64,000 bases of DNA from an uncultured Roseburia sp. (GTDB taxonomy: Bacteria > Bacillota > Clostridia > Lachnospirales > Lachnospiraceae). Location of the stretch: NCBI GenBank assembly GCA_947649645.1, contig CANSSP010000004.1, forward strand, positions 124,001 through 188,000, in the 5' to 3' direction. Each line of letters begins with the position of its first letter. Positions within the stretch are counted from its first letter, which is position 1. Positions 20,870 through 25,196 of this stretch are shown in pieces. Position numbers and translations under genes: made by a program. Under the pieces are notes generated by a model that saw nothing but the letters and a program-made list of their open reading frames with translations, made no database searches and was not told the DNA's origin.

Positions 20870-21442
20870 TCAGTCTGCCTGCCGCAGCAGTTCCGCCACT
20901 CTTTCCGCGGAAATCTTATTTTCTTCAGCAAACCGCAGGATCTCCTGCAATTCCTCTGCAATATAGCGCTCCGGCTCCTCCTTCGTGATCCCCACAACGA
21001 TTCTGCATCTGCGGTGCCGTTCCGGATACTTTTCCGGAAGCTCTTCCACAAACTGCTTCACAGGAACGTCGGAGAACGTGACATCCCTGGCTCCGGACTG
21101 GTACATGGCGTCCTCCATTGCCTTCTTATCCACTTCCGTAAATCCCCTGGGCACACAGACGGCAATCGAAGGCTTTAACAACGATTTTTTCCCCCGGGCC
21201 GTGCGAAGCAGATGCGAAATCAACACCTTTGCCGCCCGATAGTCCGCGATCGCGCCGCGCCGCAGAGGAGAGACAACCGTAACTTCTGCCGGTCCGCCGG
21301 CCAGACGCTCCGCCTCCGCTCCATATGCCACGATTTTCCCGGTCGCTTCTTCATACGCTATAAGTGCCTTTTCCTTTAACACCATCCCTTCACCCTGCAG
21401 ATATATGACAATATCCGCCGGCTCGTATCTCACGCCGTCCAT
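20870..21442 (-). CDS. Truncated MreB-like (actin-fold) protein
   Basis: A 190-residue protein that aligns by eye with the first half of MreB/Mbl. Matching blocks include VIYLQGEGMVLKEKALIAY (MreB LVYVKGKGIVVREPSVVA), SPLRRGAIADYRAAKVLISH, and KPSIAVCVPRGFTEVDKKAM followed by DAMYQSGARDV. The N-terminal phosphate-1 loop (DLGT in MreB) is absent, replaced by YEPAD, and the second half with the remaining nucleotide-binding loops is missing. It cannot be a normal actin-like ATPase. It starts three bases after the fprA stop codon, sharing its GGAGGAG site, so it is translationally coupled to fprA. Its function is unknown; it could bind MreB filaments. Confidence 0.75.
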   Translation of the reverse strand: MDGVRYEPADIVIYLQGEGMVLKEKALIAYEEATGKIVAYGAEAERLAGGPAEVTVVSPLRRGAIADYRAAKVLISHLLRTARGKKSLLKPSIAVCVPRGFTEVDKKAMEDAMYQSGARDVTFSDVPVKQFVEELPEKYPERHRRCRIVVGITKEEPERYIAEELQEILRFAEENKISAERVAELLRQAD

Positions 21443-21445
21443 CTT

Positions 21446-22669
21446 TTACTTCGTCTCCTCCGCCATGGACGCAAGAATCGCATCCGCCAGGGCGTCAAGT
21501 TCACCTGCTTTCTCCTCCTGCAGTGACGACGCAAGCGAGAGTCTGCTCCCCAGGACCGTCATTCCCTTAAGCTCTTCCTGGATAAATTTCTCCATCAGAT
21601 CGCCGGACTTGCACGCCCAGGAACCATTCTCTATAATGGCAAACGTCCTCTTCTGCAGATTCAGCGCTTTCATATCCATCAGATAATTGTGCATTACCGG
21701 ATAAATGCCAAGATTATAAGTCACGCTGGCCAGCACCACATGGCTCAGCCGGAATGTCTCGGAAATCAGATAAGAAACATGCGTGCCGGAGACATCGTAC
21801 ATCACAACATTGGTCATCCCCTTTTCGCAGAGCTTCGCCGCCAGCGCATTTGCCGCCGCCTCAGTGTTCCCGTACATCGAGGCGTATGCAATCATAACAC
21901 CTTTTTCTTCCGGCTCATATGTACTCCAGTGCTGATATTTATCGATCAGATAGCCGAAGTCATTGCGCCATACCGGTCCGTGGAGAGGACAGATATATTT
22001 GATTTTATCGACAATTGCCCCTGCTTTTTTCAGAAGAAGCTGCACATGCGGACCATATTTCCCTACAATATTCGTATAATATCTTCTGGCGTCGTCAATC
22101 CAGTCCCTGTCAAAACTGACTTCATCGTTAAACAGCTTTCCGTCCAGTGCGCCAAACGAACCAAATGCATCCGCCGCAAACAGCACTCCGTCTGTCACGT
22201 CAAATGTCACCATCGCCTCCGGCCAGTGCACCATCGGAGCTGCAACAAATGTCACGGTATGTGCTCCAAAGCAGCGCGTGTCGCCTTCGTGCACCTCATC
22301 GAGCGTATGACCGTCGATATGGAAGCCAAACTGCCGCATCAGCATAAAAGCCTTCTGCGTGCTGATCACCGTCACATTCGGATAGCGCAGCAGCACTTCC
22401 TCCAGTGACGCTCCGTGATCCGGCTCCATATGATTGATCACCATATAATCCAGATCGCGCCCGTCAAGAACGTGCTCGAGATTCTCCAGGAACTGACGGC
22501 AGGCGGACCAGTCAGCCGTGTCAAAAAGAACCGTCTTTTCATCCGTCAGCACATAGGCATTATAGGAAACTCCCCTCGGAATCGGATGGATATTCTCAAA
22601 TAAAGCCAGACGGCGGTCGTTCGCACCGATCCAGTACAAATCTTCCGTTACATTTCTCACACAATACAT
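21446..22669 (-). CDS. fprA: Flavodiiron protein (FprA, A-type flavoprotein)
   Basis: Oxygen and/or nitric oxide reductase of 407 residues, cytoplasmic. The metallo-beta-lactamase-like half holds the diiron ligands (His80, Glu82, Asp84, His85 in NHMEPDHG, then the His in MVHWPEA, the Asp in AADAFG and the His in CPLHGPVW). The C-terminal flavodoxin domain (about 253-400) begins MIAYASMYGNTEAAA and binds FMN. Such enzymes take electrons from rubredoxin or NADH:rubredoxin systems and reduce O2 to water. A rubredoxin domain is encoded in the gene immediately upstream, 13 bases away. AAAGGAGG precedes the ATG. Confidence 0.95.
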   Translation of the reverse strand: MYCVRNVTEDLYWIGANDRRLALFENIHPIPRGVSYNAYVLTDEKTVLFDTADWSACRQFLENLEHVLDGRDLDYMVINHMEPDHGASLEEVLLRYPNVTVISTQKAFMLMRQFGFHIDGHTLDEVHEGDTRCFGAHTVTFVAAPMVHWPEAMVTFDVTDGVLFAADAFGSFGALDGKLFNDEVSFDRDWIDDARRYYTNIVGKYGPHVQLLLKKAGAIVDKIKYICPLHGPVWRNDFGYLIDKYQHWSTYEPEEKGVMIAYASMYGNTEAAANALAAKLCEKGMTNVVMYDVSGTHVSYLISETFRLSHVVLASVTYNLGIYPVMHNYLMDMKALNLQKRTFAIIENGSWACKSGDLMEKFIQEELKGMTVLGSRLSLASSLQEEKAGELDALADAILASMAEETK

Positions 22670-22682
22670 GGCTCATCCTCCT

Positions 22683-24602
22683 TTAGGCTTCTTCAATAAA
22701 CTGCTCTTTGTCTTCTCCGCACTCCGGGCATACCCACTCCTCCGGAAGCTTCTCAAACAGCGTTCCCGGCAATACTTCTCCGTCCTCGTCACCGAGATCC
22801 GGGTCGTATACATATCCGCAGCCGCTGCAGACATAGCTTTTGCCGACGGGCTCTGGCTTTGGAGGCGCCGGCCGTTTCATCTTTATCATCGGAACAGGCG
22901 CCGGACTCTTTGGTTCGCCGTTGTCAAGCGCGGCGGCAAGAAGCGGCAGAATCTCCATCACATCCCCTACGATGCCGTAATCACAGTTTTTAAAGATAGG
23001 CGCGTTTGCGTTTTTATTGATCGCCACAATTGTCGCAGCATCCTTGATTCCCTTCAGGTGCTGGCTTGCGCCCGAAATCCCGCAGGCTATGTAAAGATTT
23101 CCGGTAAACTTCTGTCCCGACATGCCGACATAGCGGTTCATCGGAACGTACTTCAAGGTCTCTGCAACCGGACGCGACGAACCGACCGCCGCACCTGCCG
23201 CTGCTGCCAGCTTCTCGATCAGCGCCATATTCTCCTTTGCACCGATTCCCTTACCTGCACTGACCACTCTCTCCGCCTGTGTAATCGGCGTATCAATGTC
23301 GATCCCCACCGTAAAATCATACCCGTCCTTCTGCAGATTCTCCACAAGGGATGCCACTCTCTCTTCCGCGCTCCCGCCTTTGAAAATCATTTTTTTCCGG
23401 AGCCCTGTCACGGCTGGTTTCTTCTGCGACGCACTCTTCGGCGCAGAAGATGATTTCGGCATCCGGCCGATCAGATGCGAAGCGATGACTACTCTCTGTA
23501 TCTCATTTGTGCCCTCGTAAATCGTCGTGATCTTTGCATCGCGGTATGCACGTTCTACTTCCATTCCCTTTAAGTAACCGCTTCCGCCAAAAATCTGGAG
23601 CGCATCGTTTGTCACCTCGAGCGCAATGTCACTTGCATACTGTTTGGCCATCGCAGCTTCCATCGCATACGGCTCATGGTGCTCTTTTAACTCCGCCGCG
23701 CTATACACCAGCATCCGCGCACAGCGAAGCTTTGTCGCCATATCCGCAAGTTTAAACGAAATGATCTGCTGACGGCAGATCGGTTTTCCAAACTGTACCC
23801 TCTCTTTTGAATACTCCAGCGCATTCTCAAAAGCACCCTGCGCGATTCCCAGAGCCTGGGAGGCGATACCGATGCGTCCGCCGTCGAGCGTCGCCATCGC
23901 GATCTTAAAGCCGTCTCCCTCTTTCCCGAGCAGATTCTCCTTCGGAACCTTTACGTCATTGAAAATCAGTTCGGCCGTGGAAGAAGAACGGATTCCCATT
24001 TTATCATAGTGATCACCAAACTCAAAACCCTCGTATCCTTTTTCCACAATAAAGGCCGATATGCCCTTCGTGCCGATATCCGGCGTCGTCACCGCAAACA
24101 CTACGTAAGTATCCGCCTTCGGCGCGTTTGTGATAAAGATTTTACCGCCGTTTAACAGATAGTGATCGCCCTTTAAAACGGCCGTCGTCTCCGTCCCGCC
24201 CGCGTCAGACCCCGCGTTCGGCTCCGTCAGACCAAAAGCGCCGATCTTTTCTCCCTTTGCAAGAGGAACCAGATATTTCTGCTTCTGTTCTTCCGTTCCA
24301 TACTGGAAAATCGGCCAGCTCCCCAGCGATACGTGCGCCGAGAGGATGACGCCGGTCCCGCCGTCCACTCTCGCCAGCTCTTCGACCGCAATGGCGTAGC
24401 TTGTCACATCAAGTCCGGCGCCGCCGTACTCCTTCGGATACGGAATCCCCATCAGATTCATCTCCGCCATTTTTTTCACTGCTTCCGTGGGAAACTCATT
24501 GTTCTGATCCATCATAAACGCCTGCGGTTTTACCTCCGTCTCGGCGAATTTCCGGACCTGCATGCGGAACGCTTCATGGGCCTCTGTCGTTTTGAAATAC
24601 AT
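22683..24602 (-). CDS. Acyl-CoA dehydrogenase / EtfA C-terminal domain / rubredoxin fusion
   Basis: A 639-residue three-part flavoprotein. Residues 1-380 are a complete acyl-CoA dehydrogenase ([17 protein letters not shown] for flavin binding; [19 protein letters not shown] with the catalytic Glu). Residues about 390-560 match the FAD-binding C-terminal domain of electron-transfer flavoprotein alpha ([39 protein letters not shown]). After a Pro-rich linker, residues 588-639 are a rubredoxin with two CxxCG-type knuckles ([11 protein letters not shown] and CPECGED) binding one iron. EtfB and the EtfA N-terminal domain are absent. Electrons could pass ACAD FAD, Etf FAD, rubredoxin iron and on to FprA encoded next. 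Start at 24602 is set by AAAAGGAGG. Confidence 0.93.
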
Positions 24603-24671
24603 CGCACTTCCTCCTTTTCTAAAACTCGACATTTTTTATCCACTTTACACCATAAAAGTGCCAGAAACCTA

Positions 24672-24699
24672 CAGTTAAAACTATATATTTTATAGCATG
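24672..24699 (-). promoter_or_regulatory. Possible operator or internal promoter before the ACAD fusion gene
   Basis: In the 104-base gap between the Rrf2 gene and the fusion gene, a very AT-rich stretch contains an inverted repeat (CTATA-AAATA-TATAG on the minus strand). Rrf2 regulators bind AT-rich palindromes of roughly this kind, so it may be an internal operator. No clear -35 is seen. Confidence 0.35.
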
Positions 24700-24706
24700 A
24701 CTTCTG

Positions 24707-25129
24707 TCATCTGCTGTCCGGACTGGTCTGTCTCACCAGCTCAGACAACGTACAGCGCTTCAGCTCCTGGTTCAAAGATTTCTGAAGCGACACAAACTTC
24801 TGATTCATCGTACAGCACCCGCCCCTGTTGTCCCTCCTGCGGCACTCATAGTCCGGTATCATACAGGCAGAGATACGGATATCTTCCCCGATAACCCGCA
24901 TCAGATGATACAGAGTAGTCTCTTCCAGATCACAGGCCAGCCGACAGCCGCCGTTTTTCCCCCTGGTAATTTCGATCAGTCCGCCACGGTCCAGCTTTTT
25001 TAATATCTTGTACCCGAACTGGCGGGGAACCAGCTCCTGCTCGCAAAGCTCTCCTGCCGTAAACTGCTGTCCCAGAGCCAGAATCGACAGAATACGGAGT
25101 GCATAATCCGTCTCTCTTGTAATCAGCAT
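24707..25129 (-). CDS. Rrf2 family transcriptional regulator with Cys cluster
   Basis: DNA-binding regulator of 140 residues. The winged helix-turn-helix starts MLITRETDYALRILSILA, and the recognition region includes VPRQFGYKILKKLDRGGLI and the family-typical GKNGGC motif. The middle region has four Cys (ISACMIPDYEC followed within ten residues by GGCC), the position where IscR and NsrR bind an iron-sulfur cluster. This suggests sensing of oxygen, NO or cluster status. It is the first gene before the rubredoxin fusion and fprA and very probably regulates them and itself. Start at 25129 follows a GGGAGTGG site. Confidence 0.9.
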   Translation of the reverse strand: MLITRETDYALRILSILALGQQFTAGELCEQELVPRQFGYKILKKLDRGGLIEITRGKNGGCRLACDLEETTLYHLMRVIGEDIRISACMIPDYECRRRDNRGGCCTMNQKFVSLQKSLNQELKRCTLSELVRQTSPDSR

Positions 25130-25161: not shown

Positions 25162-25190
25162 ATTTTAACAAATATGATAATATCTGTCAA
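25162..25190 (-). promoter_or_regulatory. Promoter of the Rrf2-ACAD-FprA operon
   Basis: Minus strand: perfect -35 TTGACA (25185-25190), 17-base spacer, -10 TAAAAT (25162-25167). The transcript would start some 20-25 bases before the Rrf2 ATG at 25129. Confidence 0.85.
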
Positions 25191-25196
25191 TTTCTT

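Follow-up and report, generated by a model that had tools for sequence, protein, structure and literature searches.

The closest characterized relative of the locus described here is the butyryl-CoA oxygen oxidoreductase (BOOR) of Fusobacterium nucleatum (FN1423-FN1424; Bystrom and Wolthers 2024, as cited by PMC12288474, PMC12630350, and PMC13404960), in which a fusion protein, BCR, is paired with a flavodiiron protein (FDP). As described in passages of PMC12288474, the two form an alpha4beta4 complex that reduces O2 with butyryl-CoA and has no nitric oxide (NO) reductase activity, and BOOR is found in many Firmicutes, butyrogenic bacteria of the gut among them; its reaction is restated in part of PMC12630350. 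Butyrate-forming gut anaerobes meet oxygen leaking from the gut wall, and BOOR would clear it with butyryl-CoA, a weak reductant, and return crotonyl-CoA to energy conservation at the expense of butyrate (parts of PMC12288474 and PMC13404960). We analyzed a stretch of 64,000 nucleotides (the window) from an uncultured Roseburia sp. (assembly GCA_947649645.1, contig CANSSP010000004.1, positions 124,001 to 188,000), in which the gene for an Rrf2-family regulator precedes genes for a BCR-type fusion and an FDP, and we present a predicted operator for that regulator.

Such a regulator has also been placed beside BOOR before. Passages of a bioRxiv preprint of July 2026 (PMC13404960) report the Rrf2 protein UniRef50_C0FN14 beside BOOR in the gut Clostridia Roseburia, Eisenbergiella, and Faecalibacterium (of 149 neighborhoods, 123 include BCR and 115 FDP), discuss an aspartate (D8) and three cysteines that it carries, and propose that cluster oxidation frees the BOOR-linked Rrf2 from DNA. 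Because BOOR and its Rrf2 neighbor are both in print (PMC12288474; PMC13404960), the gene set lacks the categorical novelty that a first-pass annotation of this DNA had implied; the enzyme pair is an already described kind of system. The new element is the predicted operator, whose occurrence agrees with that of Rrf2. The terms operator, motif, palindrom, binding site, and promoter have zero occurrences in the main text of PMC13404960, and a DNA target for a BOOR-linked Rrf2 was not found in the literature searched, whose scope ended short of subscription journals. A defined operator, if true, would make the hypothesis of that preprint testable and let regulons be sought in other genomes.

Gene content and conservation of the locus

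All three genes lie on the minus strand and follow one another in the direction of transcription as Rrf2 (25129-24707, with its ATG at 25129), the BCR fusion (24602-22683), and FDP (22669-21446); 13 bases separate the BCR stop from the FDP start, and positions and spacing are those given by the first-pass annotation. The BCR open reading frame extends from 22683 to 24632, within which a ribosome-binding site picks the ATG at 24602 and thus a protein of 639 amino acids (aa), whose identification as BCR draws also on Pfam and full-length relatives. In this single polypeptide Pfam recovers, in order, Acyl-CoA_dh_N/M/1 (E down to 1.7e-50), making up the acyl-CoA dehydrogenase (ACAD) part; ETF_alpha (5.9e-27), the EtfA FAD-binding domain (PF00766; 23043 to 23285, minus strand; G000:C4:147043-147285); and Rubredoxin (1.1e-19; PF00301; 22698 to 22835, minus strand; G000:C4:146698-146835). 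The FDP is a class A protein of 407 aa, with matches to ODP (7.3e-17) and Flavodoxin_1 (5.6e-07) and with the ligand stretches HMEPDH, PMVHWPE, LFAADAFG, and CPLHGPVW. The HMEPDH residues (H80, E82, D84, and H85) are intact together with H148, D167, and H230, as are E363 (the ACAD base) and rubredoxin Cys 592, 595, 625, and 628 of BCR; the metal-ligand and catalytic roles are those we presume for these residues in the FDP, ACAD, and rubredoxin. The GMSGxKFxG and SGAxQHLKGI stretches of the EtfA domain are kept across a 13-sequence alignment. The regulator (140 aa) matches Pfam Rrf2 (PF02082; 3.9e-24; 85.7 bits against a cut-off of 30) and narrowly misses NCBIfam rrf2_super (73.1 versus 73.3 bits). 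It has D8 and Cys 89, 96, 105, and 106, which include a Cys-x6-Cys-x8-Cys motif; across 22 aligned Rrf2 proteins, D8 is retained except in L112 and L195 (Glu in both), and the three Cys are retained except in L075, a gene with a frame break. The earlier domain calls agree with the Pfam search, and EtfB, which had been noted as missing, is indeed absent by Pfam and NCBIfam from the fusion and from the ten neighboring proteins scanned, the fusion holding just the FAD-binding domain of EtfA.

We compared 60 loci of relatives, comprising 20 (L072-L091) and a further 40 BCR-like ones (L092-L131) of 80 among the matches listed, and removal of two duplicates left 58. In 55 of these, the fusion gene is followed on its own strand by an FDP gene (the exceptions being L086, L091, and L130), the gap between the two exceeding 262 bp only in L115 (553) and L110 (880), and the survey therefore argues that the pairing is not a chance one. 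In Fusobacterium gastrosuis (L124), BCR is 83, 73, and 66% identical to that of the window over the ACAD, ETF, and rubredoxin parts, respectively, and the FDP is 69% identical. Rrf2 is adjacent in 20 of the 58 loci, some others being cut by contig ends, and it is absent beside BOOR in both Fusobacteriaceae loci fetched (L117 and L124).

By description, the window shares with F. nucleatum BOOR the order Bcd, C-terminal EtfA, and rubredoxin and the neighboring class A FDP, and differs from it in having an adjacent Rrf2 gene; with the C0FN14-type Rrf2 it shares D8 and three Cys beside BCR and FDP, the dyad and the trans cases given below being those of the present analysis. Judging from these sequence features, the locus is very probably a BOOR with a local regulator. 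By analogy, we infer that this copy catalyzes the F. nucleatum reaction: BCR would oxidize butyryl-CoA to crotonyl-CoA at the dehydrogenase FAD, the electrons would move on via the EtfA-domain FAD and the iron of rubredoxin to the neighboring FDP, which would use its FMN and diiron site to reduce O2 to water, and crotonyl-CoA would go back into the butyrate pathway. The route drawn in the first-pass annotation (acyl-CoA to ACAD FAD, Etf FAD, rubredoxin, FDP, and O2) matches this chemistry as presented in passages of PMC12288474.

A predicted operator and how it tracks Rrf2

A recurring 21-bp dyad, about ACTTGAYAAAAWTTRTCMAGT, is seen upstream in the L072-L091 set. In the window, a predicted operator of this form (AGTGGATAAAAAATGTCGAGT; 24624 to 24644, minus strand; matrix score 19.4) stops 22 bp short of the BCR ATG, and the same dyad recurs in other loci. 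A weak predicted operator (AATTGACAGATATTATCATAT; 25172 to 25192, minus strand; score 13.1) lies over the -35 element and spacer of the putative Rrf2 promoter, a sigma-70-like sequence called by consensus match only (25162 to 25190, minus strand; TTGACA-17-TAAAAT, with TG before the second hexamer; 11 of 12 consensus matches). The symmetric matrix was built from ten sites (the window and L074-L088) and tested on the L092-L131 set; since both window sites are in the training set, they provide no independent evidence. By eye, positions 24641-24660 of the window also contain a perfect 6-bp inverted repeat, CACTTT-N8-AAAGTG, with a 4-base overlap with the predicted operator.

Dropped from the test set before the counts were L094, a duplicate of L075 (same matches); L123, with a BCR 100% identical to that of L082; L098, whose Rrf2 is cut by a contig end; L103 and L129, which have no ACAD start; and L110, L125, L126, and L131, with <100 bp upstream. 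The fragments that were kept may repeat a species, because duplicates were sought only among BCRs of >500 aa. A score of at least 13 within 200 bp upstream of Rrf2 was obtained in 9 of the 12 Rrf2-adjacent loci, and none of 400 dinucleotide-shuffled versions of each region equaled it. At a threshold of 15, which was set after the scores had been seen, a site is present upstream of Rrf2 or BCR in 10/12 loci with an adjacent intact Rrf2 versus 2/19 without one (p 8e-5), a comparison of Rrf2 upstream regions with BCR upstream regions that is not fully like for like. The 38 test loci (395,652 bases) contain 14 sites scoring at least 15, all of them upstream of Rrf2 or BCR, whereas such sites numbered 0 to 3 (mean 0.75) when these loci were shuffled 20 times. 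Forty unrelated loci (L132-L171; 416,871 bases) yielded none, but they are richer in G+C (0.54 versus 0.48) and hence a weaker control than the shuffles. The right half of the dyad is matched at 4 or 5 of 5 positions in 11 of the 12 Rrf2-adjacent loci; among the 19 loci without an adjacent Rrf2, it is matched at 5/5 only in L105 and L122 and at 4/5 in L092.

Three loci with no adjacent Rrf2 (L105, L122, and L083) have a site at BCR or at the operon head, the BOOR operon of L083 being headed by an MFS transporter gene and a CoA-transferase-family gene (the L083 and L119 sites came to light later, beyond the 150 and 200 bp searched at first). All three genomes encode elsewhere an Rrf2 that matches at E≤1e-20 (4.4e-21 in G692, 2.4e-36 in G693, and 2.6e-23 in G481), and each has a distant Rrf2 gene with a site of its own (L195, 16.3; L192, 16.1; and L201, 20.7, respectively). 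In G692 the site-bearing gene (L195, contig C61) is the second-best match (E = 1.1e-18), and the best one (L193, contig C33) is without a site. In G693, the genome of L122, the Rrf2 gene with its own predicted operator is followed by an FDP gene whose product is 67% identical to that of the window (L192:1101-3156). By the same E-value limit, Rrf2 was found in 1 of the 25 site-negative genomes searched, that of L082/L123 (3/3 versus 1/25; p 0.001); if L072, which scores 13.8 and whose genome lacks a close Rrf2, is moved to the positives, this becomes 3/4 versus 1/24 (p 0.005). The trans test left out L126, with only 48 bp upstream of BCR, though its genome, G712, has an Rrf2 at 6.6e-27 elsewhere; L085, which has no ACAD, Rrf2 match, or site; and others such as L079, L091, and L114. 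Beyond this test, a 15.6 site lies about 100 bp upstream of an Rrf2 gene of 32% identity (L188:981-1001) in G694, the genome of site-negative L092, and a 13.7 site lies near another distant Rrf2 gene (L203).

Several results weigh against control of BOOR by Rrf2 through the dyad. Besides the minority of loci in which Rrf2 is adjacent, L112 has no site and L111 just a weak one (10.6; p 0.005), and L119 has nothing within 200 bp, but a 17.6 site 225 bp upstream. When the threshold is lowered to 13, 15 of 18 sites are in place, with those of L097 (14.8, inside FDP), L119 (14.7), and L116 (14.0) elsewhere, roughly the number expected from shuffles (mean 2.2). The dropped duplicate L123 has a 15.02 site inside another gene, the inclusion of which would give 14/15 in place, and the genome of L082/L123 encodes an Rrf2 elsewhere and has no site at BOOR; that Rrf2 gene, a neighbor of a methionine sulfoxide reductase gene, is without a site. 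In the genome from which the window comes, one other place (L178) scores 15.3, and a degenerate pattern proved unspecific there (161 hits versus 170 for the control), making it uninformative as a route to an own-genome regulon. The exact consensus recovered no new BOOR site in 397 genomes of the family: four of its six sites lie in training loci and the other two in L206 and L207, where the same coding stretch is hit in two genomes, and the reversed control pattern gave one. By eye, L212 and L213 share a similar ABC-transporter/response-regulator/kinase-like block, perhaps mobile, with the only other exact operator-like match, which is in a coding region.

Because the left half of the dyad is also similar to a -35 box, matches at Rrf2 promoters consist in part of promoter sequence, and it is the right half that distinguishes the sites. 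One could accordingly read the dyad as the site of another regulator or as mere promoter sequence that Rrf2 does not bind; the left half is indeed the -35 hexamer in many Rrf2 promoters, and a Crp/Fnr-type gene stands directly upstream in site-bearing L122. We regard this as unlikely, if still deserving of weight, because the site tracks Rrf2 both in cis and in trans by the counts given above, the right half is missing from TTGACA promoters without Rrf2, and L085 has a Crp/Fnr-type gene and lacks the site. It is instead reasonably likely that a dedicated Rrf2 regulon, with the dyad as its own operator, governs BOOR in Clostridia, combining self-control and control of BOOR in cis and sometimes extending in trans to BOOR (L083 among others) and to a second flavodiiron gene (L192). 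Rrf2 would most likely bind the dyad before its own gene and before BCR, and would release it on O2 or NO damage to its Fe-S cluster; the binding, the repression, and the sensed signal are what we infer for this regulator.

Host genome, electron donor, and alternative functions

The host assembly (3.07 Mb in 41 contigs; 90.87% complete) has genes for thiolase, 3-hydroxyacyl-CoA dehydrogenase, acyl-CoA dehydrogenase, EtfB, and EtfA clustered on contig C3, most of their NCBIfam matches being below equivalog cut-offs. This butyrate-type thl-hbd-bcd-etfB-etfA cluster (L004:9591-14957) has no adjoining enoyl-CoA hydratase gene, and the one PF00378 enoyl-CoA hydratase-family gene of the genome sits on contig C34; an RnfC-type gene is also present. 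On its genes alone, the host would make butyryl-CoA, and because these five functions are encoded together, with enoyl-CoA hydratase elsewhere, butyryl-CoA is most likely the natural donor. Given that the only PF00301 match of the assembly is the rubredoxin within BCR, this fusion is the only visible donor of the rubredoxin kind for the FDP. BCR-type matches occur in 16 of 299 sampled genomes of the family, among them G422, where the ACAD part is lacking; the distribution is patchy, since G685, from the same genus, has only EtfA-level matches. All 16 BCR-type-positive genomes have at least one further match to the ETF query, which we took as EtfA, compared with 151 of the 283 others (Fisher p 9e-5).

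Genes of the butyrate pathway (counted as thiolase, 3-hydroxybutyryl-CoA dehydrogenase, bcd-etfBA, or a CoA-transferase-family gene) lie within the fetched stretch in 8 of the 60 loci (L080, L083, L088, L089, L099, L122, L126, and L128), at about 2.5 to 5 kb from BOOR in L088 and L089. In L122 the gene adjoining FDP encodes a butyryl-CoA:acetate CoA-transferase (799.6 bits against an NCBIfam cut-off of 674.8), and the CoA-transferase genes of L126 and L099 also hit this model but fall short of its cut-off. CoA-transferase-family genes stand directly beside BOOR in L122:4185-6826, L126:1981-4642, and L083:5915-10380, and such neighbors would link BOOR to butyryl-CoA/butyrate exchange.

A different natural acyl-CoA (e.g., propionyl- or acryloyl-CoA or a branched short-chain one) feeding the same electron path is improbable. 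Among NCBIfam models, acryloyl-CoA reductase AcrC scores highest for the ACAD part (493.6 bits, short of its cut-off of 640), but this match does not discriminate, because the free Bcd-type genes of the host and of L128 have it as their best model too, again below cut-off. The best solved relatives include butyryl-CoA dehydrogenase (1buc) and a short-chain enzyme (1jqi), the three above them being named merely acyl-CoA dehydrogenase. The butyrate-type pathway of the host and the butyrate genes near BOOR in other loci likewise speak for butyryl-CoA, as does the use of butyryl-CoA by the F. nucleatum enzyme reported in a passage of PMC12288474. Still harder to credit is an ordinary or bifurcating Bcd-Etf system, in which the fusion would serve crotonyl-CoA reduction and the FDP be incidental. 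The fusion does combine an ACAD with an EtfA domain, both homologous to those of bifurcating clostridial Bcd-EtfAB, but EtfB is missing, EtfA is partial, a separate bcd-etfB-etfA set is available on contig C3, and FDP is linked to the fusion in 55/58 loci.

NorV and the C. difficile multidomain FDP are flavorubredoxin or NAD(P)H-linked FDPs, which share with the protein of the window the FDP core and a rubredoxin donor; here, rubredoxin sits on an acyl-CoA dehydrogenase, and the donor would be an acyl-CoA and not NAD(P)H. FDPs of these types are mentioned in part of PMC12288474. NO reduction, the other half of the function assigned in the first-pass annotation, could make the pair mainly an NO reductase, like some other flavodiiron proteins, under an NsrR-like Rrf2. 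The FDP does match models of anaerobic NO reductase flavorubredoxin (209 bits), and the regulator has D8 like NsrR (for the role of D8, see the relevant part of PMC13404960). However, the flavorubredoxin cut-offs are not reached (209.4 versus 635 and 198.3 versus 711 bits), nor is that of the NsrR equivalog (42.6 versus 182 bits), and the report of BCR-FDP without NO reductase activity in F. nucleatum (passages of PMC12288474) means that the closest characterized homologue gives no support to NO reduction as a main role. We therefore consider this quite doubtful, more so than a different acyl-CoA donor for the BOOR reaction. More generally, the regulator shares the Rrf2 domain with a Cys motif with NsrR, IscR, and RirA and falls below all equivalog cut-offs (IscR in NCBIfam, 36.8 versus 207.55 bits).

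Variant architectures and a neighboring gene

Several loci depart from the typical architecture. An EtfA-domain/rubredoxin protein without ACAD is followed by FDP in L085:8538-9314 and L129:1920-2735 (cut by a contig end in L129); the two proteins are 69% identical over 261 columns, and in L085 the Crp/Fnr-type gene lies upstream of the pair. ACAD-EtfA-domain fusions without rubredoxin are found in L131:86-3097, with FDP next to it, and in L091:8368-10068, with none. Conversely, BCR fusions without an adjoining FDP are encoded in L086:7880-9823 and in Allobaculum mucilyticum (L130:4720-6657). The modules of BOOR are separable, and a form without ACAD would depend on a dehydrogenase supplied in trans.

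Adjoining the FDP gene in the window, positions 20870-21442 encode a 190-aa protein that matches only the N-terminal third of MreB (PF06723; 1.2e-28), and a stretch homologous to its gene is present in L078.

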